From Oscillospiraceae bacterium (GTDB lineage: Bacteria > Bacillota > Clostridia > Oscillospirales > Ruminococcaceae): DNA of 64,000 bases. Below, piece by piece: positions 10,404 through 48,774 of the stretch. The notes beneath the pieces were generated by a model. It was not told the origin of the DNA. It saw nothing but the letters and a program-made list of their open reading frames with translations, and ran no database searches. The number at the start of each line of letters is the position of its first letter. The first letter of the stretch is position 1. Location: the NCBI GenBank assembly GCA_017550285.1, contig JAFZPP010000040.1, forward strand, positions 62,001 to 126,000. Reading direction: 5' to 3'. The translations under genes were made by a program, and so were the position numbers.

Positions 10404-13400
10404 TTACGAAGCAGGATGTGCGATCAGCTCTTCCCAGGAAATATCGTTTCCGGAAAGCGTATTGTTGACATAGTACAGCAGAATCAGCTGCGCATCGTCA
10501 ACGCCGATCTGACCGTCGCGGTTGACATCGGCAGCACGAAGCTGCTCCGGCGTCAGCCCGCTGTCTATCTCTGCCATGATATTCACATACGCGAGCAGAG
10601 CAAGCTGTGCATCCTCCACGCCGACACCGTTTTTGCCGTCCACATCGCCCACCGGATATTCAATGGAAACGGGCGGAACGGTGGTTTCCGTCGTCGTTGA
10701 CTCTGTGGTTGTACTCGTTGTGACCGAGCTCTCCGCAGAAGACGCTGTGCCGGTCGTGACAGTGGTTGTACCTGTCACAGGCGTGGTCGCAGTCGTTGTC
10801 ACAGACGAATCCGTCGTACCGGTTATCGTTGTATCAGAGGTTGTCGAAGTGGTGCTAGTAGTAGACGTTGTCGAAGTGGTCGAGGTGGTGCTTGTGGTTG
10901 ACGTTGTCGAAGTCGTCGATGTGGTGCTTGTGGTTGACGTCGTCGAGGTTGTCGATGTGGTGCTAGTAGTAGACGTTGTCGAAGTGGTCGAGGTGGTGCT
11001 TGTGGTTGACGTTGTCGAGGTTGTCGAAGTGGTGCTTGTGGTTGACGTTGTCGAGGTCGTCGATGTGGTGCTTGTGGTTGACGTTGTCGAGGTCGTCGAT
11101 GTGGTGCTTGTGGTTGACGTCGTCGAGGTCGTCGATGTGGTGCTTGTGGTTGACGTTGTCGAGGTCGTCGATGTGGTGCTTGTGGTTGACGTTGTCGAGG
11201 TCGTCGACGTGGTGCTTGTGGTTGACGTTGTCGAGGTCGTCGATGTGGTGCTTGCAGTGGACGTTGTCGAGGTCGTCGAAGTCGTGCTTGTGGTGGACGT
11301 CGTCGAGGTCGTCGAAGTCGTGCTTGTGGTTGTCTTGGTTGTGGACGTTGTTGTATCCGTTGTCGCCGTTGTGGTCGCAGAAACAACCGGCGTGAGCTTC
11401 CAGCGCTGGAGCACGCTGCCGTTATAGCGCTGAAGCTGCAAATTGCAGCCGACCGCATCGGCAGCCGGTGCAATGACAAGCTCCGGACGTACTGCATTCT
11501 GGAGAATATACTGACCCTTCGTCACCTCAGTGAACCAGAAATACTGTGTACCGTCGGTATATTCATCCCAGCCGGACATCACGATACCTTCCTTGATGTC
11601 ATTTGCAGTCTTGCAGGTGCAGTTGACATAACGGGTCGGCATATCGCCGAGTGCAAGGGAATATTTGCCGTCGCCGACATGTTTCAGCGTGAACTGCTGT
11701 GTCAGCTTGCCTTCGTTCAGTTCCAGACCGATCGGATGCCCCGCACTGATCTTCGCCTCCGTCTGATGCGTCATGCAGTAGCCGTTTTTCACATTGACAA
11801 GATAATATACGCCCGGCTTTACATTCTGCTTCATTGCCGGAACCGGTACCGGAACCGTGCTCGTGACCGTGGTAGATGTTGTTGTCGGCTTCGTGCCGGT
11901 GGTGGAAGAAGTGGTCTTCGTCGTGGATGTTGTCGTCTTGGTAGTGCTTGCGGTCGTCTTGGTGGTTGTGGCAGTTGTCTTGGTGGTGCCGGTAGTCTTT
12001 TTGGTCGTAGCAGTTGTAGTTTCCGTTGTGACCGGATTTCTCAGCTCCTTGAAGGTCCACTTCTGGAGCTTGCTGCCGTTGTATTCCTGAAGCGACAGAC
12101 CCGCTTTCACATCATCACTCATCGGCGCAATGACGAGATTCTCATTGAGCATGCTCTGAATAATAAACTCCTCATCGCCGACTTCCGTAATCCAGAAATA
12201 CTGCGTGCCATCATCATATGCTTTCCACGAGGAAATCTGTACGCCTGCCTTGACATCGTTTGCCGTCTTGCAGGTGCAGTTGACAAACAGATTCTGATCC
12301 TCATAGAGCGCGAGCTTATAGTATCCGTCCTTGACATAAATCAGATCATAGCACTGATTCGTCTCGCCCATGTAAAGTTCCAGTCCGATCGGATGCGATG
12401 CGCTCAGCGTATTCCATGTCTGATGCGTCATGGCATAATTGTTCGCTGCATTGATGATCGCGCACTGATTGTACTGCATTGTATCTGCCGTTGCATGCTC
12501 CGGCAGCTGCGGCTTGACAGGATTCGCAGTCGTCGTTGCGGAAACAGTCGGCTTCTTCGTCGTAGAAGTCTGGGTCGTGGTCGTCTTCTTGGTGGTTGTT
12601 GTATTCTTCGTGGTGGTAGCGGCAGACACAGTCGTTTTCTTCGTGGTGGTTGATGTGACGACAGGATTCGTCTCAGTGGAGACTGTCGTTGTCACAATCG
12701 GTGCCGGCTCACTCAGCTTCCACTTCTGCAATGCGCTGCCGTTATAAAACTGCAATTCCAGACCGGAGCTTACATAAGCACTTTGCGGCGCGATGACAAG
12801 ATTCTCATTGAGTGCACTCTGAATGATAAATTCCTCATCGCTGACTTCCGTAATCCAGAAATACTGTGTGCCGTCGGTATATGCATCCCATGAGGAAATC
12901 TTTACGCTTTCACAGACCTTATCCGCCGTACTGCACTTGCAGTTGACATACAGATTCTGATTCTCATACAGTGCAAGCTGATATTTGCCGTCGCTGATAT
13001 ATTTCAGCTCAAAGCGCTGATCCGCAGGACGATCCTTCAGCTCCAGACCGATCGGATGATACTTTCCGAGCTTATACTCCTTCTGATGCGTCATCGCAAA
13101 GCCGGTCTGCACATTCGTGAAGCTGCATGCACCATACTGTATCGTATCCTTTGTCGAATGCTTCGGCACCGAATTGAGCGAAACCGGATCAAGGCGCCAT
13201 TTTTGCAGCTGTGTACCGTTGTAGCGCTGAATCGTCAGCTGAGACTTTTCGCCGGAACCGGAGGGCGCTGCAACCAGCGACTTATCGTGCCCGTTCTGGA
13301 GAATATACTCGCCGTTGCCGACAGACGTCACCCAGAAATACTGTGTGTCATCCTTAAACGCGCTTCTGCCGGTCAGCTTTGTACCGACCGTAATATCATT

Positions 13401-14681
13401 CGGCGTCGGGCATTCGCAGTTGACGAAACCGCCGTCGGAATGATTAATTGCGAGCGTATACTTGCCGCTGCCGACATGGGTCAGCGTGAAAATCTGCTCC
13501 GGACTGTTATCCGGTGCAAATGCGGAAATCGGATTCGGATCGGAAGTACCCCATGAATAATTCATGCAGTATCCCGTCGATGCGTTGACGAATCTGTATT
13601 TGCCCTCTGCGAGATTCTTTTCTCTGGAAGGCTCCGGCACGGTCACCTTGACCGCCTTCTGAATCTTCCAGCGCTGCCCTGCGGCTTTCGTATAGCCGCT
13701 GACCGTGAGCGTGCTCTTGTTGCCGTAAGAGGTAATCACGAGCGACGGATTCTTGCCGTTCTCGATGATGTATTCGCCCTTGTGATCGGGGTCCTCCACG
13801 AGCCAGAAATACTGTGTATCATCGTTCCATGCATCTCTGCCGGTCAGCTGCACACCGTCATAGATCGAAGCGGGATTGGCGCATTCGCAGTTGACAAAGC
13901 CGCCGTCGGAATGATTGATGCCGAGGGTATATTTTCCCTTGCCGACATGGGTCAGCGTGAACTCCTGCTCCGGACTGCCGTCCGCCGGAAGCGTGATGAT
14001 CGGGCTGGCACCGTTGATATCACTGAGGAATGCATAGTTCATATATGCGCCGTCCGCGACATTGACAAGATTGTAGATGCCCTCACCGAAATTCGCCGTA
14101 TCGCCGTGCTTCGGCGGCTCAACGGCAGGAGCCGACTTGAAGTTCGGGCGGATCACACCGGTAAAATCATTGATCGTTCTGGGAACCGCCTGGCAAGCCT
14201 GCTGCCCGTAGTTCGTTTCTGCTGTTGTGACGGAACTGCCGTTGACATCGGTAATGATGCCGACATGACCTGCTTTGCCGGTACCGTGCGTATATGCTGC
14301 CTGCACGAAAATATCGCCTTTGCGCGGCGTACCGCCTGCAATATAGGTAAAGCCGTCCGGCAGTGAAATATACTGATAATCCGTTGCATCGCCTCTGATG
14401 AGATAATAATCCTGATGCCGCAGATATCCGATATATGCCATAATCAGGTCAACGCACTGACAGCCGTAGCTGCTGTCCACATCGCGCCACCAGCTTGTCC
14501 GTGCGCAATCTCTTGCCCACTGTGCACCCTGCTCCGCGGTGAACTCCGAAGGTGCGGCATATGCAGTCAGAGATTGCAGCATACCGGTTCCCGCGCCAGT
14601 CAGCGGACACAGCGATGCCGTCAACATCACTGCCGCAGCCGCTGCGGAAGCAAGACGTTTCCGAATACTTTTCCGAATCAT
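10404..14681 (-). CDS. Large secreted CHAP-domain, ricin-like lectin and dockerin protein
   Basis: 1425-aa secreted protein. In order: signal peptide (about 1-42, ending near AYA); CHAP amidase/endopeptidase domain (about 48-182) with probable catalytic Cys76 (CQCVD) and His139 (AGHVGI); five related beta-trefoil modules of about 145 aa (about 200-345, 355-500, 516-665, 735-885, 955-1100), each ending in a QxW motif (LQKW or QRW) and sharing VNC-C and TQYFW; Thr-rich linkers; a Thr-Ser-Thr tract (about 1112-1279); and a C-terminal dockerin (about 1345-1425) with two calcium loops. CHAP domains cut peptidoglycan cross-links; the lectin modules probably bind glycans; the dockerin would dock on a cohesin scaffold. 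A single-gene transcript with a long leader. Confidence 0.9.
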   Translation of the reverse strand: MIRKSIRKRLASAAAAAVMLTASLCPLTGAGTGMLQSLTAYAAPSEFTAEQGAQWARDCARTSWWRDVDSSYGCQCVDLIMAYIGYLRHQDYYLIRGDATDYQYISLPDGFTYIAGGTPRKGDIFVQAAYTHGTGKAGHVGIITDVNGSSVTTAETNYGQQACQAVPRTINDFTGVIRPNFKSAPAVEPPKHGDTANFGEGIYNLVNVADGAYMNYAFLSDINGASPIITLPADGSPEQEFTLTHVGKGKYTLGINHSDGGFVNCECANPASIYDGVQLTGRDAWNDDTQYFWLVEDPDHKGEYIIENGKNPSLVITSYGNKSTLTVSGYTKAAGQRWKIQKAVKVTVPEPSREKNLAEGKYRFVNASTGYCMNYSWGTSDPNPISAFAPDNSPEQIFTLTHVGSGKYTLAINHSDGGFVNCECPTPNDITVGTKLTGRSAFKDDTQYFWVTSVGNGEYILQNGHDKSLVAAPSGSGEKSQLTIQRYNGTQLQKWRLDPVSLNSVPKHSTKDTIQYGACSFTNVQTGFAMTHQKEYKLGKYHPIGLELKDRPADQRFELKYISDGKYQLALYENQNLYVNCKCSTADKVCESVKISSWDAYTDGTQYFWITEVSDEEFIIQSALNENLVIAPQSAYVSSGLELQFYNGSALQKWKLSEPAPIVTTTVSTETNPVVTSTTTKKTTVSAATTTKNTTTTKKTTTTQTSTTKKPTVSATTTANPVKPQLPEHATADTMQYNQCAIINAANNYAMTHQTWNTLSASHPIGLELYMGETNQCYDLIYVKDGYYKLALYEDQNLFVNCTCKTANDVKAGVQISSWKAYDDGTQYFWITEVGDEEFIIQSMLNENLVIAPMSDDVKAGLSLQEYNGSKLQKWTFKELRNPVTTETTTATTKKTTGTTKTTATTTKTTASTTKTTTSTTKTTSSTTGTKPTTTSTTVTSTVPVPVPAMKQNVKPGVYYLVNVKNGYCMTHQTEAKISAGHPIGLELNEGKLTQQFTLKHVGDGKYSLALGDMPTRYVNCTCKTANDIKEGIVMSGWDEYTDGTQYFWFTEVTKGQYILQNAVRPELVIAPAADAVGCNLQLQRYNGSVLQRWKLTPVVSATTTATTDTTTSTTKTTTSTTSTTSTTSTTSTTSTTSTTSTASTTSTTSTTSTTSTTSTTSTTSTTSTTSTTSTTSTTSTTSTTSTTSTTSTTSTTSTTSTTSTTSTTSTTSTTSTTSTTSTTSTTSTTSTTSTTSTTSTTSTTSTTSTTSTTSTTSTTSTTSTTSTTSTTSTTSTTSTTSDTTITGTTDSSVTTTATTPVTGTTTVTTGTASSAESSVTTSTTTESTTTETTVPPVSIEYPVGDVDGKNGVGVEDAQLALLAYVNIMAEIDSGLTPEQLRAADVNRDGQIGVDDAQLILLYYVNNTLSGNDISWEELIAHPAS
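10845..11345 (-). repeat. 36-bp tandem repeat coding for a Thr-Ser-Thr linker
   Basis: About 13 imperfect copies of a 36-bp unit, itself four 9-bp TST units, inside the CHAP/dockerin gene. Copies differ mostly at synonymous positions, and one TST is changed to TAS. The repeat keeps all frames open, which gives false Val-rich frames on the plus strand. The product is an extended, probably O-glycosylated spacer before the dockerin. Confidence 0.92.
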
Positions 14682-18365: not shown

Positions 18366-19391
18366 TCATTCGGCAGCCTGAAATCCGTTCGGATTCTGCC
18401 GCTGCCAGTTCCATGAATCACGGCACATATCATCGAGCGTTTTCTCCGTATGCCAGCCGAGCAGCCGCTCCGCCTTATCCGCGTTTGCATAGAATTCTGC
18501 AAGGTCGCCGTCACGGCGCGCGCCGTACACATGATTGACCTTCACCTGATTGACGCGCTCAAATGTCTCAACGATCTCTGTGACGCTGTAAGGCGTACCG
18601 GTGCCGAGATTGAACACCTCGACGCAGTGCTGATGCATGATATAATCAACAGCCTTCACATGTCCTTTCGCAAGATCGACCACATGGATATAATCGCGCA
18701 TGCAGGTACCGTCCTTGGTCGGATAGTCATTGCCGAAAATCGTCAGGCATTCGCGCTTGCCGACCGCAACCTGTGTCACATAGGGCATCAGGTTATTCGG
18801 AATGCCGAGCGGGTCCTCGCCGATCATGCCGGATTCATGTGCGCCGATCGGATTGAAATAGCGCAGCAGAATGACGGAGAGCGCCGGATCAGCCTTTGCA
18901 GCATCCTCAAAAATCTGCTCCATCATTGCCTTTGTCCAGCCATACGGATTCGAGCAGACGCCGCGCTTCATTGTTTCGATATAAGGCACGGCATTCTCCT
19001 CCCCGTAGACCGTCGCGCTCGAGGAGAAGATCACGTTCTTCACGCCGAATTCCTCCATGACCTCCAGCAGCGTCAGCGTCGTGTCAATATTGTTCCGGTA
19101 GTACATCAGCGGCTTTTTCACAGACTCGCCGACTGCTTTCAGTCCGGCAAAGTGAATCACCGCGTCAATCTTCTCTGCGCGGAACACCGCCGCAACAGCC
19201 TCACGGTCGCGTACATCCGCCTCATACAGTGCGACATGCTTTCCGGTGATCTGTTCCACTCTGCGGATTGCCTCCGGAGAGCTGTTCATGAAATTATCAA
19301 TCACTGCCACTTCATATCCGGCATGCAGGAGCTCCACAGCAGTATGCGAGCCGATATAGCCTGCACCGCCTGCCAGTAAAATTTTCGCCAT
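18366..19391 (-). CDS. galE: UDP-glucose 4-epimerase
   Basis: 341-aa SDR-family epimerase interconverting UDP-glucose and UDP-galactose (possibly their N-acetyl forms). It shows the NAD-binding GGAGYIGSH at the N terminus, SSSATVYG and the catalytic YGWTK (Tyr-x-x-x-Lys), and the usual family length. Start MAKILLAGG at 19391. It lies 29 bp after the phosphonopyruvate decarboxylase gene in the same direction, so it probably shares the phosphonate transcript and can supply UDP-galactose for surface glycans. Confidence 0.94.
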   Translation of the reverse strand: MAKILLAGGAGYIGSHTAVELLHAGYEVAVIDNFMNSSPEAIRRVEQITGKHVALYEADVRDREAVAAVFRAEKIDAVIHFAGLKAVGESVKKPLMYYRNNIDTTLTLLEVMEEFGVKNVIFSSSATVYGEENAVPYIETMKRGVCSNPYGWTKAMMEQIFEDAAKADPALSVILLRYFNPIGAHESGMIGEDPLGIPNNLMPYVTQVAVGKRECLTIFGNDYPTKDGTCMRDYIHVVDLAKGHVKAVDYIMHQHCVEVFNLGTGTPYSVTEIVETFERVNQVKVNHVYGARRDGDLAEFYANADKAERLLGWHTEKTLDDMCRDSWNWQRQNPNGFQAAE

Positions 19392-19420
19392 AACTGCCTC
19401 CGTTTCCCGATATCCGCGTC

Positions 19421-20542
19421 TCAGAGCGCCGCAAGATATCCCATAAAATTCTGCTTGTTTTCCAGCGCGGTCGTTGTCGGTCTGCCGAGATCGCCGCGCG
19501 CACCGATTGCGCATTTCACTTCAATCAGCGTGAGCGCGTCTCTGCTTCGGGCAGCCTGCAATTCCCGATCCAGCGCATCAAACGTATCGACGCAGACTGC
19601 ATACGGATAGCCGCAAGCCGCTGCAATCGCGGTCAGATCAATCTGTCCTGCTGCCGTCGGCATGCCGCCGACCGTTTCATGCGCGCCGTTGTTAATGATA
19701 AGATGCACAAGATTCTGCGGCTTCATGGCACCGTTCACCGCCATTGCACCCATATGCATCAGTGCCGCGCCGTCACCGTCCACGCACCAGATTTTCTGCT
19801 CCGGCATATGCAGTGCAATGCCGAGCGCAATGGACGAAGCATGCCCCATAGAGCCGACCGTCAGAAAGTCATATTTGTGACTCTGACCGTTTGCCTCCCG
19901 TATCTCAAACAGCTCACGGCTTGCCTTGCCGGTCGTGGAAACAACCGGATCGCTGCCGGAAACTGCGGTAATATGCCGGATAATCTCCTCACGGCTCATC
20001 GGATTGCCGTTTTGGTATGTGACCGCCGGTGCATCTGTCAGCGCACCCTTGCGAATGACAAATGCGACCTGCTTTCCCGCAGCCAGCACGCTGCGGAATT
20101 CCTCCATGACGGCACAGAGCGCATCCGCTGCCGTCTCCTTCCCGATCACAAAATACCGGATATCCATTTCCTCGAGCAGCTTCAGCGTGACCGCGCCCTG
20201 ATAGATATGCTGCGGCTCATCGTGTACGCCCGGCTCGCCGCGCCAGCCGATCACAAAAACCATCGGAATCGCATAGACCCGATCATTCAGCAACGACGCC
20301 GCCGGATTGATGATATTTCCTTCGCCGGAATTCTGCATATACACAACCGGCACTCTGCCCGTCGCCAGATGATAACCGGCGGCAAGCGCCGTACAGTTTC
20401 CTTCATTCGCCGCAATGATATGATGCCTGCGGTCAATGCCGTAGGTCTGCATCAGATAATCGCAGAGCGCTTTGAGCTGCGAATCCGGTACACCGGTATA
20501 AAAATCCGCACCGAGGATTCTGACAAAATCTGCAACCTTCAT
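19421..20542 (-). CDS. aepY: Phosphonopyruvate decarboxylase
   Basis: 373-aa thiamine-diphosphate enzyme converting phosphonopyruvate to phosphonoacetaldehyde; this step drives phosphonate biosynthesis by pulling the unfavourable PEP mutase reaction. Visible are the ThDP-binding VDGDGA...IINN segment, the N-terminal catalytic region AANEGNC and the conserved NGAHETVGGMPT. Start MKVADFV at 20542 is preferred; an upstream GTG at 20554 would add four residues and overlap the dehydrogenase gene. Adjacent to PEP mutase and an alcohol dehydrogenase, it forms a complete early phosphonate pathway. Confidence 0.93.
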   Translation of the reverse strand: MKVADFVRILGADFYTGVPDSQLKALCDYLMQTYGIDRRHHIIAANEGNCTALAAGYHLATGRVPVVYMQNSGEGNIINPAASLLNDRVYAIPMVFVIGWRGEPGVHDEPQHIYQGAVTLKLLEEMDIRYFVIGKETAADALCAVMEEFRSVLAAGKQVAFVIRKGALTDAPAVTYQNGNPMSREEIIRHITAVSGSDPVVSTTGKASRELFEIREANGQSHKYDFLTVGSMGHASSIALGIALHMPEQKIWCVDGDGAALMHMGAMAVNGAMKPQNLVHLIINNGAHETVGGMPTAAGQIDLTAIAAACGYPYAVCVDTFDALDRELQAARSRDALTLIEVKCAIGARGDLGRPTTTALENKQNFMGYLAAL

Positions 20543-20546
20543 AGTT

Positions 20547-21662
20547 TTACACACCCTGCAAAATCTGCTGATAAAGTGATTTGATTGTACCTGTACTCAG
20601 CGAAACGGGATGATTCCGCAGCCGCTCCGGATTGACCGATGCAGTCAGTACGGCAAAATCCTCATCGGATTTCACAGAAGGCACCGGAAGCGCAAGCGCA
20701 TCGACAATCTCCGCAAACCGTGCCGGCAGATCATATCGGGAGCATCCCAGTGCATCCGCGATTTCGCCGAATACATTTTCCAGATGTGCCGCACCGCGTG
20801 CATCCGTACAATGCGCCGAATACTGCATCATATACGGAAGCAGCGCCTTGACGCACAGCGCCGCTGCATGACCGTGTGCAATGCCGTAAAGCGTTGTCAG
20901 CTTATAGCACATCGCATGGCCTGCGGTTGTCTGCGTAATATTGATCGCCTTGCCTGCGAGATTCGCAGCCTGCATCATCTCCGCATTGCCCTGATCGTCA
21001 TTCGCAAGATAGCGTGCCTCTGCTGCAACGATCATTTTGATTGCTCTGCGCGCATAGTCCATGCTCTCCTGTGTCGCATGCACCGACCAGTAGGATTCGA
21101 CCGCATGGCAGAGCGCGTCAAGCATTGTTGCCTTCCGCTGATACATCGGCATGGGCTTCAGCAGCACCGGATCAAACAGCACTGCGGACGGAATGCAGCT
21201 TTCATCGGAGACAGAGAGCTTTTCACCGTTATGATAAATCACGGCAAAGCGCGTTGCCTCACTGCCGGTTCCGGCGGTTGTCGGGATTGTAAGCAGCGGA
21301 ATGTCATTCGGTACGATGCGCTGTGCAAGATAGGGCGCATGGTTATCCATATTCGCGTAGAGCTTGATGCACTTGGCAACGTCCATTGCGCTGCCGCCGC
21401 CGACTGCCGCAATCAGATCGCATTTGCCGGCACGGAAAATCGACACGCCCCTGACAACCGAATCATAGCACGGATTCGGCTGATAATCCGAAAACCGTAC
21501 AATACGGACGCCGAGACGTTCCTCGAGCGTCTCAAAGTAATCTTTGATGCGCAGATGCTGAAATCCGCTGCCGCACACAAGCAGGATACATTCTGCACCG
21601 GTCCGGACAAAATAATCATCGAGATCGGCATATGCCTCATCGGCATTCATAATAAACTGCAT
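20547..21662 (-). CDS. Iron-containing alcohol dehydrogenase, probable phosphonoacetaldehyde reductase
   Basis: 371-aa group-III (iron-dependent) alcohol dehydrogenase. NAD site GGGSAMDVAK, the TTAGTGSEAT motif, and metal-ligand regions DALCHAVES and GIAHGHAAAL are intact. Between PEP mutase and phosphonopyruvate decarboxylase the expected reaction is reduction of phosphonoacetaldehyde to 2-hydroxyethylphosphonate, as known for PhpC/FomC-type enzymes. Function is inferred from context. It starts one base before the PEP mutase stop region and ends 4 bp before aepY, so the three genes are tightly coupled. Confidence 0.88.
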   Translation of the reverse strand: MQFIMNADEAYADLDDYFVRTGAECILLVCGSGFQHLRIKDYFETLEERLGVRIVRFSDYQPNPCYDSVVRGVSIFRAGKCDLIAAVGGGSAMDVAKCIKLYANMDNHAPYLAQRIVPNDIPLLTIPTTAGTGSEATRFAVIYHNGEKLSVSDESCIPSAVLFDPVLLKPMPMYQRKATMLDALCHAVESYWSVHATQESMDYARRAIKMIVAAEARYLANDDQGNAEMMQAANLAGKAINITQTTAGHAMCYKLTTLYGIAHGHAAALCVKALLPYMMQYSAHCTDARGAAHLENVFGEIADALGCSRYDLPARFAEIVDALALPVPSVKSDEDFAVLTASVNPERLRNHPVSLSTGTIKSLYQQILQGV

Positions 21663-21663
21663 A

Positions 21664-23682
21664 TCAGATGTCCTCCGGAATCAGGCGAATAATGTCCTTG
21701 AACGGCATGCAGACCGCATCACATTCCCTCGCGCGGTGATACGTCAGAATCAGCTCCGCCGCATGCTGCATGGCAGGAAATCCGCTTCTTGTGAGCTGAT
21801 TGGCATAGATCACAACATTGACGCCGCGCGCCCTGAATTCCTCCTCCGTAACCGTATTGAACGATGTCGGAACAACAACCAGCGGCGTTTCGGTATCCTG
21901 CGCACGGAACAGCTCTGCGAACGCAAAAATCTCCGCAGGGTCCTGTCTGCGCGAATGAATCATAATTGCATCCGCACCGGCATCCCGAAATGCAAATGCG
22001 CGTGTCAGTGCATCCTCCATGCCCTGTTCCAGAATGAGACTCTCAATGCGGGCACAGATCATGAAATCTGCGGTTTTCTGCGCTTTTTTGCCCGCTCTGA
22101 TCTTCTCGCAGAAATCAGAAACCGAAGCCTGTGTCTGCGCGACCTCCGTGCCGAACAGTGAATTCTTCTTCAAGCCTGTTTTATCTTCAATGATAACCAT
22201 GGAAACGCCCATGCGCTCCAGTGTGCGGACCGTGTATACAAAATGCTCCGTCAGACCGCCGGTATCGCCGTCGAAGATGATCGGTTTCGTCGTGACCTCC
22301 ATGATATCGTCGATCGTGCGGTAGCGCGAGGTCATATCCACAAGCTCAATATCCGGCTTGCCCTTTGCAGTCGAATCACAGAGCGACGAAATCCACATTG
22401 CATCAAACTGTCTTGCGCCGCCGTCCTGAAAAACCACGGTTTTTTCCGCGATCAGACCGGTCAGTCCGCTGTGTGCCTCAATCGCGGTAATCAGCCCCTT
22501 CATGGCAATCGCCTTCCGGAGCCGCCCCCTGCGGATATGCGGCATGGACATATCGGCGCGTGCACGGTTTTCAAGCTCCTGATATTTTTTATCCTTTGCA
22601 TAGGGATATTCCACGAGCTGTCCGCCGTAAGACGCAAGCACCGAGGTCACCTCATCGCGTATGACCTTCTGAAAACCGGTCTGCCAGTCATCGCCGTGCA
22701 CAACATAATCCGGCTGATAGGCTTCGAGATTCTCTCTGTAACTCAGCGATTTCTGCGCAACAACCTTCCAGACACCTGCAATATTCTCAAACATTGCCTT
22801 CCGTTCCGCAAAGGGCAGCAGCGGAAAACGCTTGTAGCTGCAAACCGCCTCATCGGAAAGCACGCCGACAATCAGCCTGCCGAGCCGTTTTGCCTTTTTG
22901 ATAAGTGCAATATGTCCGCTGTGAATCATGTCGGTCGAGAAGCACATATAAACGGTGCGGCTTTCAATCTCACGGAGCCTTGCGGATACAACCGCCAGAT
23001 CCGCCGGATTGTCAATCTCCGCACAAAGCCTGTCTGCAACATCCAGCGGAACGATATCCTTTTCCGCAATCTCGTTGAGTGCATGTTCCGCATAGCACGT
23101 TGTCTTTGCAGCATCGCCCGATTCACAGTATGTGATGATGCGCGCAAGCCACAGATTCCAGTCAGCTTCCAGCAGCTTATACAGCGGCTGCGCAGCGACG
23201 GCATCATTGAAGAATTCAATGCCGACCTTCTGCACCCTTCCGTCCGCGATCACCGCCTTAAAATCCTTTTCCGGCAGTTCCAGCGATGTGCTGACCGTCA
23301 TGCAGCTCTGCGCCGACGCGAGGACATCATCGAGCACGGTATTCTCAAACACAAGATCGCCGTGCATCAGAATGACAGCGGTATCTCTGAGGTATTCCCG
23401 CGCGCAGTAAATCGAATAAATATAGTTCGTCCGGTCATAGACCGGATTTTTGACAAAGGTAATATGCAGCGGCAGTTCCAGACTGTTGCAGTAACTGACC
23501 AGTACGCTGTCAAAGGCACCGGTCGTCATGACAACATCGGTAATGCCGGCATCGGCAAGCATCCGGAGCTGCCTGCTGAGAATCGTCTCACGGGCGGAGA
23601 TTTCTGTCATGCATTTCGGATGCTCGCTCGTGAGGACGCCCATGCGGCTGCCGAGACCGGAATTCAGTATCAGTGCTTTCAC
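21664..23682 (-). CDS. aepX: Three-domain enzyme: NTP transferase, cytidylyltransferase and phosphoenolpyruvate mutase
   Basis: 672-aa fusion. Residues 1-240: a LicC/MobA-like sugar-type nucleotidyltransferase (LNSGLGSRMG, HPKCMTEI, HGDLVFEN). Residues about 241-375: a second, TagD-like cytidylyltransferase of the HxGH superfamily (HSGH 254-257, GVLSDEA). Residues about 385-672: phosphoenolpyruvate mutase with DGDTGG and the signature EDKTGLKKNS at 499-508, which separates it from isocitrate lyase relatives. PEP mutase makes phosphonopyruvate from PEP, the first C-P bond. The attached transferases probably couple the phosphonate to CMP. The GTG start at 23682 follows GGAGGGAG; a longer frame overlaps the region after the VanZ-like gene. 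Confidence 0.9.
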   Translation of the reverse strand: MKALILNSGLGSRMGVLTSEHPKCMTEISARETILSRQLRMLADAGITDVVMTTGAFDSVLVSYCNSLELPLHITFVKNPVYDRTNYIYSIYCAREYLRDTAVILMHGDLVFENTVLDDVLASAQSCMTVSTSLELPEKDFKAVIADGRVQKVGIEFFNDAVAAQPLYKLLEADWNLWLARIITYCESGDAAKTTCYAEHALNEIAEKDIVPLDVADRLCAEIDNPADLAVVSARLREIESRTVYMCFSTDMIHSGHIALIKKAKRLGRLIVGVLSDEAVCSYKRFPLLPFAERKAMFENIAGVWKVVAQKSLSYRENLEAYQPDYVVHGDDWQTGFQKVIRDEVTSVLASYGGQLVEYPYAKDKKYQELENRARADMSMPHIRRGRLRKAIAMKGLITAIEAHSGLTGLIAEKTVVFQDGGARQFDAMWISSLCDSTAKGKPDIELVDMTSRYRTIDDIMEVTTKPIIFDGDTGGLTEHFVYTVRTLERMGVSMVIIEDKTGLKKNSLFGTEVAQTQASVSDFCEKIRAGKKAQKTADFMICARIESLILEQGMEDALTRAFAFRDAGADAIMIHSRRQDPAEIFAFAELFRAQDTETPLVVVPTSFNTVTEEEFRARGVNVVIYANQLTRSGFPAMQHAAELILTYHRARECDAVCMPFKDIIRLIPEDI

Positions 23683-23720: not shown

Positions 23721-24233
23721 CTATTGCTTTGCCGCAGCGCATTTCCGGATGAAGCTGTAAAACAGATATCCGATCACGGCGCCGAGCGTATTATGAAACA
23801 CATCATCAAATTCCAGCAGTCCTCTGCCGGTATAATACTGTGTCAGCTCTATAAAACATGTAGACAGCAGCGCGGTCAGCGTGACAAACAGCAGTTCACG
23901 CAGCATGCGTCTTTTCGGATCGCGCCGCTGCGGACACAGTGCCGGAAGCAGCACGCCCAGCGGCATCAGCAGAAGCAGATTGCCCAGAATCTGGCGAGCG
24001 AAAAATCTGCGGCTGCTCCCGCGGAACACCATGCGAATCTCCCAGAACGGCGTCAGAATTGCCCTGCGGATACCGACCTTCCGGTCAATCAGCGTCAGCC
24101 ACAGGACGGCGAATACATATAGAAACAAGACACAGACGCCGAATATGCGTCTGTATCCTGCGGTACTGTGATCATTTTGACCGGACCGATGCAGTGCCGC
24201 ATCATGATCCGCATTGCGTTTCCGTCTCTTCAC
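23721..24233 (-). CDS. VanZ-like membrane protein
   Basis: 170-aa VanZ-family protein with four predicted membrane helices and the family motifs NLLLLMPLGVLLP and IELTQ...GRG...FDDVFHNTLGAVIGY. The name-giving VanZ gives low-level teicoplanin resistance, but most members have no known role. It is the first gene after the promoter at 24279-24307 and leads into the phosphonate genes 38 bp downstream. A highly charged N-terminal tail (MKRRKRNADHD) is cytoplasmic. Confidence 0.9.
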   Translation of the reverse strand: MKRRKRNADHDAALHRSGQNDHSTAGYRRIFGVCVLFLYVFAVLWLTLIDRKVGIRRAILTPFWEIRMVFRGSSRRFFARQILGNLLLLMPLGVLLPALCPQRRDPKRRMLRELLFVTLTALLSTCFIELTQYYTGRGLLEFDDVFHNTLGAVIGYLFYSFIRKCAAAKQ

Positions 24234-24473: not shown

Positions 24474-24584
24474 TTGAATTGGGTTGTTCAAATAAAAGAA
24501 TTACAAAATGGAGTGCAATATATAGTAAGATTTACTGACAGTATATTATACTGATGCTGAATTCTTTGATTGGAGGTCTCGTTC

Positions 24585-25880
24585 ATGGGTGTGAAAGCGA
24601 TCCTGCGCAAAACGCCTGTCAAAAAAATCTATACCGCAGCCAAAAACTGCCTGATTGATCTGGATTCTGCTGCAATCGGCGTATGCAGGAAAATGAAGGC
24701 ACATAAATCCGATGTCATTACGGTTGTTTTCATGTGCCAGTATATTCCGGCATGGAACAAGATGAAGCCGGTCTATGAAAAGCTGAAAGCCGACAAGCGC
24801 TTCAAGGTCATTCTGCTCTGCATCCCGTCGGATATCACTGAGCATGTCCTGCATTCCAAAGTAAATGACGTCTATCAGTATTTTGTCTCGGAGCACTATA
24901 CGGATGCTGTCGATGCGCTCGAAAAGCAGGACGGCACGCTCAGGTGGAAGAGTCTCCGGCAGTTCTCTCCGGATTATGTTTTCTACGGCAGGCCGTACAA
25001 TTCTTATATGCCTGCGGTGTATACCTCAAGAAGCGTTGCGCGGTATGCAAAGGTCTGCCTCATCATGTACAGCACAAACATCACGAAGTTTGCGCTGGAT
25101 ACGACAATCAACCGGAATTTCCTTGCGTATACCTATATCTATTTTGCAACCTCGCAGGAGCTTGCCGAGATCAATACAAGCCGGAATAAGCTCGCGCACA
25201 GGCTCGGATTCAGCCATACCTATGACTGCGGTCTGATTCCGATGGAGGAAATCCTCCTCAACAAAGATCAGCCCCATAATTCATGGGACTGGTCCGAAAA
25301 GCAGATTCGCGTCATGTGGACACCGCGCTGGACGACTGATCCGGCAATCGGCGGCAGCAATTTCTTCCGGTATAAGGAAGTGCTGTATGACTATGCTTCG
25401 CGTCACCCCGAAATGGATTTCCTGTTCCGTCCGCATCCGATGATGTGGGACAATTTCATCAAAACCGGTGAGATCACTGAGGCGGAACGGGATGCATATA
25501 TCAGCAAATGCAATGCACTCGGAAATATCCGGTTTGACAGCAACAAGGAATATATCAGCACGCTCTGGAGCACAACCGTGCTGATTTCCGATATCTCCGG
25601 CATTATGACCGAGTTCTATGCAACAGGCGCACCGCTTATTTTCTGCGAATCGGATATCAAGATGTCGCTGTTCAGGCAGGGCGAAACGATCATGGATTCC
25701 TGCTATCGGGTCAATTCCGAGGCAGAGCTGATAGAAACGCTCGATCAGATCGGCAGAAATGAGGATCCGCTGCGGGAAAAGCGTGAAACCGTTGTCCGTT
25801 CGATGATCAATCCGGACAAGCTGCCGAGCACGGTCATTCTTGAGCATCTTCTCGCAGACCATAAAGGGAAAAAGAAATAA
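24585..25880 (+). CDS. CDP-glycerol glycerophosphotransferase family protein (TagB/TagF-like)
   Basis: 431-aa cytoplasmic or membrane-associated transferase. The C-terminal half carries the family's conserved FRPHPMMWDNFI and SDISGIMTEFYATG motifs, the latter matching the donor-binding SDxSS(x)xxE region. Family members move glycerol- or ribitol-phosphate (or another phospho-alcohol) from a CDP donor to a glycan. It is short, with no extra glycosyltransferase domain. The ATG at 24585 follows GGAGG. The next gene makes CDP-choline-type donors, so a phosphocholine or phosphonate donor is possible. A paralogue lies at 37910. Confidence 0.88.
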   Translation: MGVKAILRKTPVKKIYTAAKNCLIDLDSAAIGVCRKMKAHKSDVITVVFMCQYIPAWNKMKPVYEKLKADKRFKVILLCIPSDITEHVLHSKVNDVYQYFVSEHYTDAVDALEKQDGTLRWKSLRQFSPDYVFYGRPYNSYMPAVYTSRSVARYAKVCLIMYSTNITKFALDTTINRNFLAYTYIYFATSQELAEINTSRNKLAHRLGFSHTYDCGLIPMEEILLNKDQPHNSWDWSEKQIRVMWTPRWTTDPAIGGSNFFRYKEVLYDYASRHPEMDFLFRPHPMMWDNFIKTGEITEAERDAYISKCNALGNIRFDSNKEYISTLWSTTVLISDISGIMTEFYATGAPLIFCESDIKMSLFRQGETIMDSCYRVNSEAELIETLDQIGRNEDPLREKRETVVRSMINPDKLPSTVILEHLLADHKGKKK

Positions 25881-25913: not shown

Positions 25914-27680
25914 GTGGACAAGGAAAAATTTGAGATTCTGCGTTATCTCAGCGAGCATCACAATGAAATTACGCAGGCACAGATTGCAGAAGGCACCGGA
26001 AAGGCGCCGGAATCGGTCCGTACGCTGCTGGATGCACTGCTTGCAGAAGCGCTGATCAATGACGCATATCAGCTGACAGAAAAGGGATATGAGGTCATGG
26101 AGCCTTATCGCGTCAAAAATGCGATCATTCTGGCTGCCGGTATGAGCACACGGTTCATTCCGGTCTCCTATGAGCTGCCGAAGGGTCTGATCTCCGTCAA
26201 GGGCGAGGTCATGATCGAGCGGCAGATTCGCCAGCTGAAAGAGGCAGGCGTGCAGGAGATCATCGTCGTTGTCGGCTACATGATGGAAAAGTTTTTCTAT
26301 CTGCGCAGCAAGTATAATGTCAAGCTGGTTGTCAACAACGAATTCGCTACGAAAAATACGCACAGCAGTATCTATGTTGCGCGCGATTTTCTGAGCAATA
26401 CCTATATTCTCTGCTCGGATAACTATTACCCGCAGAATATGTTTCACCAGTATGAATACCGTGCCTTCTACTGCTCGGTATTCCTTGCGGGTACAAGCTA
26501 TGTCGAACGTGCATTCACCTATGACGAAGAAGGTCTGATCTATGATACCAACAAGCCTTCACATGATCAGTGGATCATGTACGGGCATGCGTATTACGAT
26601 CATGCATTTACCGAAAAGTTCCGTCCGCTGCTTGAAAGCTATTTCGGACGGCAGGGCGTCGAGGGCATGTACTGGGAAAATGTCTGGGCGGAGCATGTAA
26701 AGGAAATCCCGATGTGGATTCAGAAATGCGAACCGACAGATATTCTGGAATTCGACAGCATGGATGAATTGCAGGCATTCGATCCGGATTATATCTATAA
26801 CAACAGAGTGCATGTATTTGAAAATATCTGCCGTATCCTCTGCTGCGAGATCACCGATATCTGCGATATGACGATTATCAAGAAGGGGCTGAACAATCAG
26901 TCCTTCAAGTTCAAGGTCAACGGCGAATATTATATCTACCGTCATCCGGGCATCAATGCCTCGGGCGTCATCGACCGCAAAAAGGAGGCTACGAACCTCA
27001 GAGCCGCGAAAAAGCTGAAAATCGACGAGACACTCGTGTATATCGACGAGGAGGAAGGCTGGAAAATCTCAAAATTCGTCACGACGACGGAGATTTTTGA
27101 TTTCGGCAATAAGAAGCATATTGACATGCTGGCGCGGAAGCTGAAAACGCTGCACGATGCCAATATCTCGGTTGGCTTCGGCTTTGAATACGAGAAGGAA
27201 GCCGATCATCTGATCGACATTCTCCGGCTGACGGACGCGCTCGCCTACCGCAGATCAATCGCCGAAAAGGAGGCAATGCTTCCGCTTTTCGAGTTTCTGC
27301 GGAAGGATCAGTGGCAGGTGTCGCTCTGCCACAACGATCTCTATGAGCCGAATCTCCTTGTAGACGGCGACAATCTGCACATCATTGACTGGGAATTCTC
27401 CGGCGATGCGGATATCGGCTATGACATCTGCAAGCTGTTCGCCGTACACAATCCGGATTATCAGGAATATGACTACTGGCTTGAGCAGTATTACGGCAGA
27501 GAAACCACATTTGAGGAAAAGCGGCATCTGATCGCCTGTGCCTCTGTGATCTACTATTACTGGTATATCTGGGGTATTTACGCCGGAAAGAACAATCAGG
27601 ATGTCTCAAACTACATGATGGCATGGTATGACAAAATGAACAGCTTTCGGATCAAGGCACTGGAGATGATCGGAGAATAA
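25914..27680 (+). CDS. Winged-helix / LicC-like cytidylyltransferase / LicA-like choline kinase fusion
   Basis: 588-aa cytoplasmic fusion. Residues 1-65: a winged-helix-like segment (AQIAEGTGKAPESVRTLLDAL). Residues about 68-295: a LicC-type nucleotidyltransferase (ILAAGMSTRF, PKGLI). Residues about 300-585: a choline/ethanolamine-kinase fold with the Brenner motif HNDLYEPN near 472 and IIDWEFSG near 489. The kinase would phosphorylate choline (or a similar alcohol) and the transferase would make the CDP form, the two steps done by separate LicA and LicC in pneumococcus. The GTG start has AAGGAG upstream. The substrate is inferred; ethanolamine or aminoethanol analogues are possible. Confidence 0.88.
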   Translation: MDKEKFEILRYLSEHHNEITQAQIAEGTGKAPESVRTLLDALLAEALINDAYQLTEKGYEVMEPYRVKNAIILAAGMSTRFIPVSYELPKGLISVKGEVMIERQIRQLKEAGVQEIIVVVGYMMEKFFYLRSKYNVKLVVNNEFATKNTHSSIYVARDFLSNTYILCSDNYYPQNMFHQYEYRAFYCSVFLAGTSYVERAFTYDEEGLIYDTNKPSHDQWIMYGHAYYDHAFTEKFRPLLESYFGRQGVEGMYWENVWAEHVKEIPMWIQKCEPTDILEFDSMDELQAFDPDYIYNNRVHVFENICRILCCEITDICDMTIIKKGLNNQSFKFKVNGEYYIYRHPGINASGVIDRKKEATNLRAAKKLKIDETLVYIDEEEGWKISKFVTTTEIFDFGNKKHIDMLARKLKTLHDANISVGFGFEYEKEADHLIDILRLTDALAYRRSIAEKEAMLPLFEFLRKDQWQVSLCHNDLYEPNLLVDGDNLHIIDWEFSGDADIGYDICKLFAVHNPDYQEYDYWLEQYYGRETTFEEKRHLIACASVIYYYWYIWGIYAGKNNQDVSNYMMAWYDKMNSFRIKALEMIGE

Positions 27681-27957: not shown

Positions 27958-29550
27958 ATGAACATCTATCTGATCGGTATGATTATTACCATGATCGCAT
28001 ACATCGGTGTCGGCGCGCTTATCAGCCGTAGAGTAAAAAACGCGAACGACTTTTATGTCGCCGGACGGAATGCACCTGCATTTCTGATTACCGGTTCACT
28101 GGTCGCTTCGTTCATCGGCGTCGGTCTGTTTATGGGTGACGTCGGCGAATCCTACAGCGGTTTCTTCGGTCCGATTATGGTCGCGGTCGGCACGCTTTCT
28201 ATCGGCTATATTTTCGGTTCGGTTTTCTTCGGACGCTATCTTCGCCGCAGTCAGGCATTGACCATTCCGCAGTTCTTCGGCAAGCGTTTCGATTCCAAGG
28301 CAATGAAAATGCTCGCAACACTGACGGGCACCTTCATTATGCTGGTCTACAGTCTCTCCTGCGTACAGGGCATCGCAACACTGATGTCCGTCGTAACCGG
28401 ACTTGCATACAATACATGTATTATCCTCTCCGTCATCGCATTTACGCTGATTACGGCATTCTCGGGCGCAAAGGGCGTTCTGATTACAGATACGATCATG
28501 TTTGCGATTTTCTCCGTTGCAACGCTGATCGGCGCAGGCGTCATTGCAATCAAGGCAGGCGGCTGGATGCATACCGTCACGGAAATGGCTAACTATCAGG
28601 CAATTCCCGGTATCCTCGCCGCAGGCGGCAATCCCTCTTACTTCTATCCGACAACGCATGAGAACATGATCTGGGCGGTCGGATACGGTATCGCATGGCT
28701 GGCTGTTCTGGCAATCGCACCGTGGCAGTCGAGCCGCTACCTCATGGCAAAGAATGAGCACGCTGTTATCCGTTCGAGCATTGTGGCATCCGCTGCCGTA
28801 TTCGTCATCGAATTTCTGATGTGCATGGCAGGCGTCTTCACGCAGAAGCTCAATCCGGGCATGGAGACTCCGTCACACGCACTGATCTGGGCGTCGATGA
28901 ACCTGATGCCTGCAATCCTCGGCATCATCGTTCTCTCGGGTGTTCTCGCTTCCGGTATCTCCTCGGCTACGACATTCCTCTCTCTGATCAGCTCGAATAT
29001 CATGAACGATATCATCACTGTCAAAGACGAGAAGAAGAAGGTTCTCTACGGTCGTATCTCCGTTCTGATTATCGGTATTATCATCTGCCTGCTCTGCATC
29101 TTCCAGCCGCCCCAGATTTTCTGGATCACCTATCTCGGCGCAACAATCGTTGCCTGCTCGTGGCTGCCGGTTGCACTCGCCAGCGTATGGAGCAAGCGCG
29201 TGACAAAGGTCGGCGCTTTCTGCGGCATGCTGGTCGGCTTCGTTGTCAGTGCAAGCATGAAGATCGGTGTATCGGTTGCCGGTGTCACGCTGCCGATCTA
29301 CTTCGATCCGTTCTTTGTCGGTCTGTTCTCCGGTATCATTGCAATGATCATCGGCTCCGCGGTCACCAAGGTCACGCCGAAGGAAAAGGAAGAGCGCGAG
29401 GCGCTGTTCCAGATTCCTGCGGATGAAAAGGATGCTGCCGAGGTCAAAAAGACCAAGAATATGGTGCTGCTTTCCATTCCCATGGGCATCATGATCACGG
29501 TTGTCCTCGCGGTATGCTGGGCAATCCCGTATCTGAAGGGTCTCAAATAA
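27958..29550 (+). CDS. Sodium:solute symporter (SSS family)
   Basis: 530-aa LeuT-fold transporter with about 13 membrane helices. Family traits: N-terminal DFYVAGRNAPAF, GxFxGD region near 60, and the SGVLASGISSATTFLSLISSNI segment typical of the sodium site. The start at 27958 follows AAAGGAGG. In its operon with the LicC/LicA fusion it could import choline or a related head-group precursor in place of the LicB transporter; this is inference, since SSS proteins also carry pantothenate, proline and sugars. Confidence 0.9.
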   Translation: MNIYLIGMIITMIAYIGVGALISRRVKNANDFYVAGRNAPAFLITGSLVASFIGVGLFMGDVGESYSGFFGPIMVAVGTLSIGYIFGSVFFGRYLRRSQALTIPQFFGKRFDSKAMKMLATLTGTFIMLVYSLSCVQGIATLMSVVTGLAYNTCIILSVIAFTLITAFSGAKGVLITDTIMFAIFSVATLIGAGVIAIKAGGWMHTVTEMANYQAIPGILAAGGNPSYFYPTTHENMIWAVGYGIAWLAVLAIAPWQSSRYLMAKNEHAVIRSSIVASAAVFVIEFLMCMAGVFTQKLNPGMETPSHALIWASMNLMPAILGIIVLSGVLASGISSATTFLSLISSNIMNDIITVKDEKKKVLYGRISVLIIGIIICLLCIFQPPQIFWITYLGATIVACSWLPVALASVWSKRVTKVGAFCGMLVGFVVSASMKIGVSVAGVTLPIYFDPFFVGLFSGIIAMIIGSAVTKVTPKEKEEREALFQIPADEKDAAEVKKTKNMVLLSIPMGIMITVVLAVCWAIPYLKGLK

Positions 29551-33094: not shown

Positions 33095-34435
33095 TCAAAT
33101 CAATTCAATCATGTTCTGCCGTTTATTAAAGTCTTCGATTACGCCGACAATCGCCTCAGAGATTTCCTCGGAAACATTGCTGTAGTTTCTGCCGGAATCC
33201 ACAGCCTTAGCGAACGCGACGATTTCATAGCGGATGCCTTCGCCGTCGAGCTGATAGAAAAATCGCCTGTTGTCCTCCGGATGTTCATAGCGGATTTCAA
33301 AGTAATCCGTTTTCCACCACGGCGCCGGAACATAGATATAGCCCTTTGTTCCGGTGATAATCAGCTCACCCTCAGCCTTGGCGCCCTTTGCAACCTTGAC
33401 CGTTGCGACACCGGAGCCGTATACAAAGTCGATTTTCGTGAACGCATCAATATTTTCGGATTTATCCTGAAACATCGTATAATAGAGCTTCCTGCGGTAA
33501 TCCGTTCCGAAAATCTGAAAGACCGGAAGCATGGCTGCCGGTGCCCAGCCGCACATGCTGTTCCACTTCTTTGAGAGATCGGTGCCTTCAATCGAGATGC
33601 CGTCGCGCAGACTTGTACAGACCGCATCGACCGAGACAACCCTGCCGATCTTTCCGCCCTTCGCCATGAGAATCAGCCGCTCATACGCCGTGGAATACGC
33701 GGTTTTGATTGCATCCATGAGAATCAGATTCTTCTCCTTTGCCAGCGCAAACAGCTCCTGACACTGTTCACGGGTATAGGCAACCGGTGATTCGCAGAGC
33801 ACATGTTTTCCTGCAAGAAGTGCCTCCTTGCAGTGCTTATAGTGATTCTCCGGCTTGGAGATGATATATACGGCATCAACCCGTTCCAACAGCGCATCAT
33901 ACCGGTCGGTATAATACAGCGTATTGAGCTCGGGTTCGGTGCCCTTCGCAGAGGCATAGACGCCGACGACCTCTACGCCGTTGACAAACTTTGCCTCATT
34001 GATAAACTTCGTTCTGAATACAGTCGAGCCGACGAGTCCGATCCGCAGCTTCCGCTTTTCCGCCCGCACCTCCGAGCTGGAAACGCCCTGCGTTCTGGGA
34101 AGATAGACCACCTTGCAGTATTCATTCAGATAGTCAAAATAGCCTTCCCAGTCCGAGCCGACTGTAAATATATCGACGCCGAGACGGCGGATATCGTCGA
34201 TTTTCTGTCCCTCGTATTCCTCAACGACAATCTCATCCGCAAGACCCGTCGCTTCCACGGCGGCAATGCGCTCCATCAGCGTCTGCTGCAAATTGATCTT
34301 GCCGCGGGTCTTGTCGTAGTCATCCGAGGTAATACCGACAATCAGGTAATCGCCAAGCGCCTTTGCGCGCTCCAGTAACCGGATATGTCCGTAATGAAGC
34401 ATATCATAGGTTCCGTATGTGATAACTTTTACCAA
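33095..34435 (-). CDS. TagD-like cytidylyltransferase fused to a Gfo/Idh/MocA oxidoreductase
   Basis: 446-aa two-domain enzyme. Residues 1-128: glycerol-3-phosphate cytidylyltransferase type domain ([16 protein letters not shown] with HYGH at 14-17; VGSDWEG). Residues about 129-446: a Gfo/Idh/MocA-type NAD(P) oxidoreductase ([11 protein letters not shown] nucleotide-binding start, [10 protein letters not shown] with the usual catalytic-region Glu/Pro pattern). The fusion suggests oxidation or reduction of a sugar or polyol phosphate coupled to CMP activation, as in TarJ/TarI. The substrate is unknown. It lies 27 bp after a class V aminotransferase gene, which may act on the same intermediate. 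Confidence 0.88.
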
Positions 34436-47880: not shown

Positions 47881-48774
47881 TTAATCTTCTTTCTTTTTGC
47901 CCTTGACAAAATACTCTTTGCCGCGGTACTTGATAAACGGTGTATCCAGATCCATGAACAGAATCTTGTGCTCCGGATGACGGTCCTTCTCAGGCGGCAG
48001 CTCCATATAATTGCCGTAGCGCTGCTTGAGATAGCCCTTTGCGCCAATCGGAATCGGCATCACGGTATCCTCAAACGGAACCCATACTGCCTTATCAAAC
48101 CACTTCTTCGGGAAATTCCATTTGATATACGGGAACATGGAAAATTCCTTGACAAACTTTGCATCTTCATAATGCTTGTCCGGAATGGAAGCGAGCTTTT
48201 CCAGATTGCTCCAGATGAAGTATCTGGAGGAATCGGACTTGAAGATACCCAGAAGAACCTTCGAGCAGGTGTAAATCAGCTTGCTCTGACGGTTCGGCAC
48301 TCTGCTCGCCTTGAAGAGCGAAGTACCGGCTGCACATGCAAGCTGAAACATTCTGCCGACAGAGGTCTTTGCGGAAGCATGAAAGCATCCCACATCAATG
48401 CTGACGCCCTGATGACCGTCAGTCTCATAGGAAGATGTGGTGATAAAGGTCGTTTCATTATCCTGAATAGACGAAGACAGCCGATGATCATTATACTCCT
48501 TGCAGGTATAGCACAAAGAGTATTTCTTAGTATCGGCTTTCTCATTCCAAATTTTAAGCAGCTTGCAATAATCCGGATACGGCATCTCCATGTCGATATC
48601 ATCATCCCACGGAATAAATCCCTTATGGCGAACCGCACCAAGCAATGAACCTGCATACAGATAGACCCTCAAATTGTTTTCCTTGCAGAATTCCACAAGA
48701 TACTTTGCAATTTCAAGGTTCTTTTTCTGGAGCTCCTTGAGCTCGCTGTCAGTCAGCTTTTTCAGCTCTCTCAT
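47881..48774 (-). CDS. licD: LicD-family phosphotransferase
   Basis: 297-aa LicD protein. The family core AGSLLGAVRHKGFIPWDDDIDM (residues about 42-62) with the acidic metal cluster WDDDID is intact. LicD enzymes move phosphocholine, or another phospho-alcohol, from a CDP donor to sugars of teichoic acid or capsule. In this window it is the natural last step for donors made by the LicC/LicA fusion (25.9 kb) or the PEP mutase fusion (21.7 kb). The symbol is used for the family; the actual head group is unknown. Confidence 0.92.
   Translation of the reverse strand: MRELKKLTDSELKELQKKNLEIAKYLVEFCKENNLRVYLYAGSLLGAVRHKGFIPWDDDIDMEMPYPDYCKLLKIWNEKADTKKYSLCYTCKEYNDHRLSSSIQDNETTFITTSSYETDGHQGVSIDVGCFHASAKTSVGRMFQLACAAGTSLFKASRVPNRQSKLIYTCSKVLLGIFKSDSSRYFIWSNLEKLASIPDKHYEDAKFVKEFSMFPYIKWNFPKKWFDKAVWVPFEDTVMPIPIGAKGYLKQRYGNYMELPPEKDRHPEHKILFMDLDTPFIKYRGKEYFVKGKKKED

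Follow-up and report, generated by a model that had tools for sequence, protein, structure and literature searches.

Fusions of phosphoenolpyruvate (PEP) mutase with nucleotidyltransferase domains have been described before. The survey of Rice et al. (2019, PMC6697681) lists 42 triple fusions among 1,485 PEP mutases and, as far as the accessible text of that paper goes, these were only counted, with neither a check of the PF01467 motif nor an assay. Fom1 of Streptomyces wedmorensis joins a cytidylyltransferase (CyTase) domain to a PEP mutase domain and converts 2-hydroxyethylphosphonate (HEP) into CMP-HEP (PMC6697681, PMC8976061). Here, we describe a three-domain PEP mutase from a Ruminococcus-like Oscillospiraceae bacterium, probably of the gut or rumen, encoded in 64,000 nucleotides of contig JAFZPP010000040.1 (assembly GCA_017550285.1, positions 62,001 to 126,000), hereafter called the window. 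Based on sequence comparison, we lean on balance towards a reading in which the N-terminal domain would make CMP-HEP, while the middle domain would bind a ligand or act as a scaffold and no longer catalyze. The gene and its domains are arranged as follows.

21664..23682, minus strand: three-domain PEP mutase of 672 aa, with a GTG start at 23682 and a stop ending at 21664
22978..23682, minus strand: N-terminal LicC/PntC-type domain, residues 1-235, with GLGSR...PK at 9-23, HGD at 107-109 and EID at 222-224
22564..22959, minus strand: middle Fom1/TagD-type CyTase domain and linker, residues 242-373, with HSGH at 254-257 and HGDDW at 329-333 kept
21667..22527, minus strand: C-terminal PEP mutase domain, residues 386-672, with EDKTGLKKNS at 499-508

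The original prediction, made from the sequence alone, had placed LicC-like, TagD-like and PEP mutase domains on this chain, and all three were recovered by Pfam above cut-off: NTP_transf_3 at residues 3-125 (42 bits, cut-off 27), CTP_transf_like at residues 251-348 (50.9 bits, cut-off 21) and PEP_mutase at residues 396-645 (179.9 bits, cut-off 31.5). The triple fusions of Rice et al. carry the same combination, PF13714, PF12804 and PF01467, each above its gathering score in the window protein (PMC6697681). The PEP mutase profile TIGR02320 scored 388.9 bits, above its curated cut-off of 319.55, and the EDKxxxxxNS motif, predicted to be intact, was indeed present and is common to the published triple fusions and the window protein (PMC6697681). 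Judging from these features, the C-terminal domain should form the first carbon-phosphorus bond. Among named genomes, 411 stretches encode relatives; the best 80, which were retained, are 72-86% identical and all span the three domains, one being cut by a contig end. The frame is conserved at this identity from the first to the third domain in these 80 proteins, so the fusion is neither accidental nor an assembly artifact.

The middle domain was compared with the CyTase domain of Fom1 (5X3D), to which its model is close (Foldseek; 50% identity, TMt 0.93, root mean square deviation [rmsd] 1.0 Å, 121 columns). It was absent from the VIA list, which the other two domains filled; Foldseek did list it. 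As seen in the alignment, HxGH is kept as HSGH, and the GIS[ST][ST] pyrophosphate motif is missing: the CyTase domain of Fom1 ends with YTPGISST, and the window counterpart reads YAKDKKYQ (aligned segment YAKDKKYQELE), with D364-Q368 (DKKYQ) at the GISST position. The protein thus resembles Fom1 in its middle and C-terminal domains and in its HEP context, but Fom1 has two domains and GISST, whereas the window protein has lost GISST and has an added LicC-type domain (PMC6697681, PMC8976061). In the wider family, the signature RTxGISTT binds CTP, and Arg113 and both His residues of HxGH are essential in TagD (PMC8262930). When one of the two final Thr residues is replaced by Ala in the CCT of Plasmodium, activity is practically abolished, and CTP binding drops about threefold (PMC6060094). 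This analogy suggests a domain that has lost catalysis and mostly kept binding, matching the conserved pocket described below. Because the turn that holds pyrophosphate is lost, the middle domain is probably not a working transferase and may instead bind a ligand or serve as a scaffold. The original prediction had assumed two working transferases and had itself named the loss of key residues as contrary evidence; precisely this loss is seen in the middle domain, where GIS[ST][ST] is gone.

To compare relatives, we used 213 loci from the family, a related family, the class, the phylum, named genomes and one plasmid. These gave 196 nonredundant PEP mutase open reading frames (ORFs), comprising 105 three-domain forms (over-represented, since the 80 named loci were chosen by similarity to the window protein), 86 CyTase-PEP mutases and 5 without a recognizable CyTase. 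ORFs with identical last 250 residues were counted once, those at 200 bits or less to the window's mutase domain were dropped, and the window protein was left out of the counts. The numbers are sequence counts within Clostridia, plus a few records labeled otherwise, such as Bacteroidota, and some of the small groups searched were tiny (10, 16, 19, 3 and 8 genomes). A CyTase domain is joined to PEP mutase in 191 of the 196 ORFs. In these fused domains GIS[ST][ST] is full in 1 (locus L039), partial in 12 and absent in 178, and is thus incomplete in 190 of 191; the full-motif comparison rests on Fom1 and this one clostridial enzyme. Apart from L039, no G[IVL]S[ST][ST] occurs between Trp333 and residue 400 among the 191, and the motif was found nowhere in that interval in the three-domain relatives (105/105). 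HxGH is exact in 100 of the 105 three-domain proteins (exceptions HSAH in three, LGAH and NSAH), and a slightly looser pattern, HxG/AH, is present in all 86 two-domain proteins. The pocket residues (both His, Arg294, His329, Gly330 and Trp333) rank among the most conserved positions.

A similar middle domain is present in HEP clusters and in 2-aminoethylphosphonate (AEP) clusters. Lys occupies Fom1 position 67 in 106 of 118 HEP clusters and the second Asp of HGDDW is kept in 110 of 118; Asn replaces the Lys in 31 of 36 AEP clusters. The idea that the middle pocket tracks the product (HGDDW in HEP, HGDNW in AEP) was dropped, since two independent contrasts were alike in this respect and clade may explain the pattern.

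The N-terminal domain shares its fold and the GxG(T/S)R...PK signature with PntC-AEPT of Treponema denticola (6PD1/6PD2) and LicC of S. pneumoniae (1JYK). The pattern GxG(T/S)R-x4-8-PK is found as GLGSRMGVLTSEHPK at residues 9-23, with R13 and K23 as the equivalents of PntC Arg15 and Lys25. PntC with this Arg or Lys replaced is less than 10% active (PMC6697681). Both catalytic residues are kept in 100/100 aligned fused N domains; the other 5 of 105 were missed by the start pattern or were duplicates. The strict N-motif pattern is matched by 98/105; the seven misses include sequences truncated by a contig end or by the chosen start, as well as L229 and L244, in which Leu replaces Met. In the PntC Lys153 column, where the alignment is weak, 36 of 100 relatives have Lys and 30 Arg.

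PntC Glu104 is placed to contact the AEP amine, and LicC has Asp (Asp105) there (PMC6697681). The domain in the window protein has His107 instead and accompanies a reductase rather than a transaminase. At this position, His was found in 100/100 fused N-type domains and in 24 of 25 separate N-type domains (one gap), and 40 PntC-type genes have Glu (39) or Asp (1); the two types were separated by similarity to one query each. Altogether, 173 LicC-type domains were examined, and for 149 of them the locus has a reductase or a transaminase but not both. These 149 comprise 110 His/reductase, 37 Glu/transaminase, 1 Glu/reductase and 1 gap/reductase case, so that His goes with the reductase (HEP) and Glu with the transaminase (AEP) in 147. 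In the 24 domains from loci with both genes or neither, the residue is His in 13, Glu in 10 and Asp in 1. The Glu/reductase exception, which resembles DUF6564 by label only, comes from L062, where an N-type gene is present as well. At the level of loci, N-type or PntC-type agrees with reductase or transaminase in 151 of 151 scorable cases. Moreover, an N-type domain is fused to the iron-containing alcohol dehydrogenase (Fe-ADH) itself in four ORFs (L046, L048, L300 and L301; Pfam confirms the last two). The last two lie at L300:2271-5861 and L301:11528-13210, and the L300 chain also includes a glycosyltransferase domain of family 2.

Of the 190 incomplete-motif enzymes, 182 have a further cytidylyltransferase candidate on the same chain or no more than 8 kb away: a fused N-type domain in 105 and a separate N-type, PntC-type, DUF6564-type or stand-alone CyTase gene in 77. 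Similarity thresholds decide what qualifies as a second enzyme. An initial, smaller tally covered 163 fused CyTases. The tally on 191, first made at 60 bits with best-hit labels, was repeated at 40 bits, counting the labels of any domain, because N-type domains were hidden in Fe-ADH fusions, PntC-like genes scored 42-57 bits and DUF6564 (PF20202) genes occurred. In seven clusters a separate CyTase is the sole other candidate, six of these having the full motif and one (L075) NVSSS. No second candidate accompanies L039, the only fused enzyme with the full motif. In a quick tree built on the mutase domain, we counted 7 changes of the three-domain label and 34 of a label that combines architecture with motif class and second enzyme (12 classes); partner enzymes seem to have been exchanged repeatedly.

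Several other proteins in these loci were of note. At L242:7565-9007, L075:2581-4005 and L076:1293-2717, a Radical SAM domain is joined to a CyTase with GISSS, NVSSS and GVSST, respectively (Pfam scan on L242 only; CxxxCxxC seen in all three); these genes adjoin a motif-less CyTase-PEP mutase and recall the Fom1/Fom3 logic. At L062:13308-14834, an N-type plus CyTase protein with a weak PEP mutase remnant (20.3 bits) adjoins an intact two-domain CyTase-PEP mutase. Finally, the DUF6564 (PF20202) proteins of L053, L059, L282, L287 and L290 resemble LicC-type nucleotidyltransferases (Pfam on L053 only) and recur in a phosphonate cluster with a constant small set of neighbors.

The genes around the three-domain gene are listed below.

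20547..21662, minus strand: Fe-ADH, probable phosphonoacetaldehyde reductase, the next gene
19421..20554, minus strand: phosphonopyruvate decarboxylase (TIGR03297, 452.5 bits, cut-off 312.5)
18366..19514, minus strand: GalE-like epimerase (profile match), probably in the same transcription unit
23721..24233, minus strand: VanZ-like gene, upstream of the three-domain gene on the same strand
47881..48774, minus strand: LicD-family gene (PF04991, 122.3 bits), candidate transferase of the activated group
24570..25880, plus strand: weak CDP-glycerol glycerophosphotransferase-like gene (PF04464, 19.2 bits, under the cut-off of 22.1), putative second transferase
39189-40640: flippase-like gene, recognized by eye

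The Fe-ADH was named a phosphonoacetaldehyde reductase from its gene context and from 44% identity to a Segatella copri gene so annotated. The suggestion that the genes following the PEP mutase point to HEP is supported by the relatives: the order reductase, then decarboxylase is found downstream in 78 of the 105 three-domain loci, with a median gap of 5 bases between the three-domain gene and the reductase (89 loci with the reductase first). A decarboxylase alone is present in 8 loci and neither gene in 3. An annotated counterpart, aepX of S. copri DSM 18205 (WP_006848642.1, plasmid NZ_CP085933.1), is 72% identical to the window protein over its full length and annotated as PEP mutase, and is followed by an annotated decarboxylase and phosphonoacetaldehyde reductase; it differs in having NSAH in place of HxGH and in that the decarboxylase precedes the reductase. 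A cultured strain, Ruminococcus sp. FC2018 (L090), also carries the three-domain gene, close to a reductase and a decarboxylase.

Glycan genes surround the locus, with LicD-, IspD-like and glycosyltransferase genes in the window (Pfam), which fits surface tailoring. Among the 56 three-domain loci that offer 7 kb or more of sequence on either side, only 23 have a LicD- or transferase-like gene no farther than 8 kb away, so the attachment enzymes named here are candidates. Elsewhere in the window, 25914-27680 encodes a LicC-LicA-like fusion, in which an NTP-transferase domain and a choline-kinase-like domain share a chain that also matches a winged helix weakly, followed by an SSF-type transporter at 27958-29550; together they are likely a phosphocholine branch beside the phosphonate genes. 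A TagD-like cytidylyltransferase joined to a GFO/IDH/MocA oxidoreductase (33095-34435) and a PhnW-like aminotransferase under family cut-offs (34463-35536; TIGR03301, 143.1 of 360.8 bits) were also seen. Two large secreted-looking proteins (10404-14681 and 57309-62678) have, by eye, long Thr/Ser-rich runs and dockerin-like C termini. The window gave no tRNA, tmRNA or Rfam match at the gathering threshold.

From these domains, model folds, motifs and gene order we infer the following pathway. The C-terminal domain would convert PEP to phosphonopyruvate, the decarboxylase (19421-20554) would form phosphonoacetaldehyde, and the Fe-ADH (20547-21662) would reduce it to HEP. Next, the N-terminal domain, which is related to LicC/PntC and has His for the AEP-contacting Glu, would join HEP and CTP into CMP-HEP, and LicD-like or CDP-glycerol-transferase-like enzymes may move the activated group onto a surface glycan. 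The first and last steps of the pathway would plausibly sit on one chain. The middle domain may descend from a Fom1-type HEP cytidylyltransferase that has kept most of its pocket. In a more specific version, which we consider quite unlikely, this retired enzyme would have become a sensor that binds CMP-HEP or CTP and feeds back on the PEP mutase of its own chain, the committed step.

Other explanations were weighed against the same observations. Both transferases might work, one on HEP and the other on a second phosphonate or an alcohol phosphate; both domains are strongly conserved, and the LicC-LicA-like fusion, the TagD-like fusion and the PhnW-like gene of the window indicate that several activated groups may be made. 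We hold this to be unlikely, since GIS[ST][ST] is incomplete in nearly all fused CyTases and a change there inactivates a related enzyme, since this kind of middle domain occurs in HEP and AEP clusters and is thus independent of the product, and since the position-67 Lys is mostly Asn in AEP clusters. It is highly doubtful that the middle domain is itself the HEP cytidylyltransferase, with a remodeled pyrophosphate loop, and that the N-terminal domain activates something else. Such an enzyme would account for the close fit to HEP-CMP-bound Fom1, for HxGH in most members and for the Lys and Asp kept in HEP clusters, but the N-type domains accompany the HEP-forming reductase and are fused to it in four ORFs, a separate CyTase, complete in its motif in six cases, is present in the seven clusters that lack a LicC-type candidate, and the first catalytic His is also gone in S. 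copri. A purely structural role of the middle domain, as a spacer or oligomerization unit that binds no ligand, agrees with its almost constant fusion to PEP mutase in clusters of either product; this too seems improbable, as the pocket residues are more conserved than a spacer needs.

Several observations also weigh against a CMP-HEP-forming N-terminal domain beside a noncatalytic middle domain. The middle domain is not decaying (mean conservation 0.81 versus 0.76 in the N domain), and a predicted helix still starts at residue 365, the expected place of the motif; the conservation fits a function, and a changed but active loop is possible. Fom1 has Tyr at the position of the essential Arg113 of TagD, and the window protein retains it (Y361), so the family already departs from the wider signature. 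Eight enzymes, 7 of the 178 motif-less ones and 1 of the 12 with a partial motif, have no second candidate within 8 kb (in two of them the flank is shorter than 1.5 kb on one or both sides, and in a third it is about 4 kb), and stricter thresholds (best-hit labels, 60 bits) leave 18 of 189 without one, the looser cut thus favoring our reading. The Fe-ADH is under the TIGR03405 cut-off (162 versus 423.7 bits). Furthermore, there are only two to three phylogenetically independent contrasts of N-type/PntC-type against reductase/transaminase, and the mutase-domain tree shows no more than 3 changes of motif class. The motif thus seems to have been lost long ago, and the evidence is weaker than the large counts imply.

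The fusion had been called unusual, which holds only in part. In the phylum sample, PEP mutase was found above cut-off in 16 of 398 genomes, and 2 of the 16 are of three-domain length. In the same family it was found in 47 of 396 genomes, and open frames of that length (670-720 aa) occur at 20 of the 47 places. One locus, L275 (genome G1128), has two PEP mutases above cut-off; they are on a single contig, about 5 kb from each other, and their open frames measure 668 and 432 aa. The three-domain architecture itself is not new, as it was inventoried in print before (PMC6697681); enzymology of a triple-fusion PEP mutase was not found in the open-access literature searched. What is new is the GIS[ST][ST] loss in fused CyTases, the His/Glu split and the N-type-reductase fusions.

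Roughly one in four PEP mutases carries a fused PF01467 domain, and the fusion has been taken to mean that the phosphonate is activated directly (PMC6697681). In the clostridial sample, the fused PF01467 domain almost always lacks the motif whose loss inactivates a related enzyme, and another cytidylyltransferase candidate nearly always accompanies it. The pairing of His with reductase and Glu with transaminase offers a simple predictor, from sequence only, of a gut bacterium's surface phosphonate. If the sensor version of the middle domain were true, the fused CyTase would be a regulatory domain across gut Clostridia, and the published view of PF01467 fusions as nucleotidyl activation would need correcting for these bacteria.
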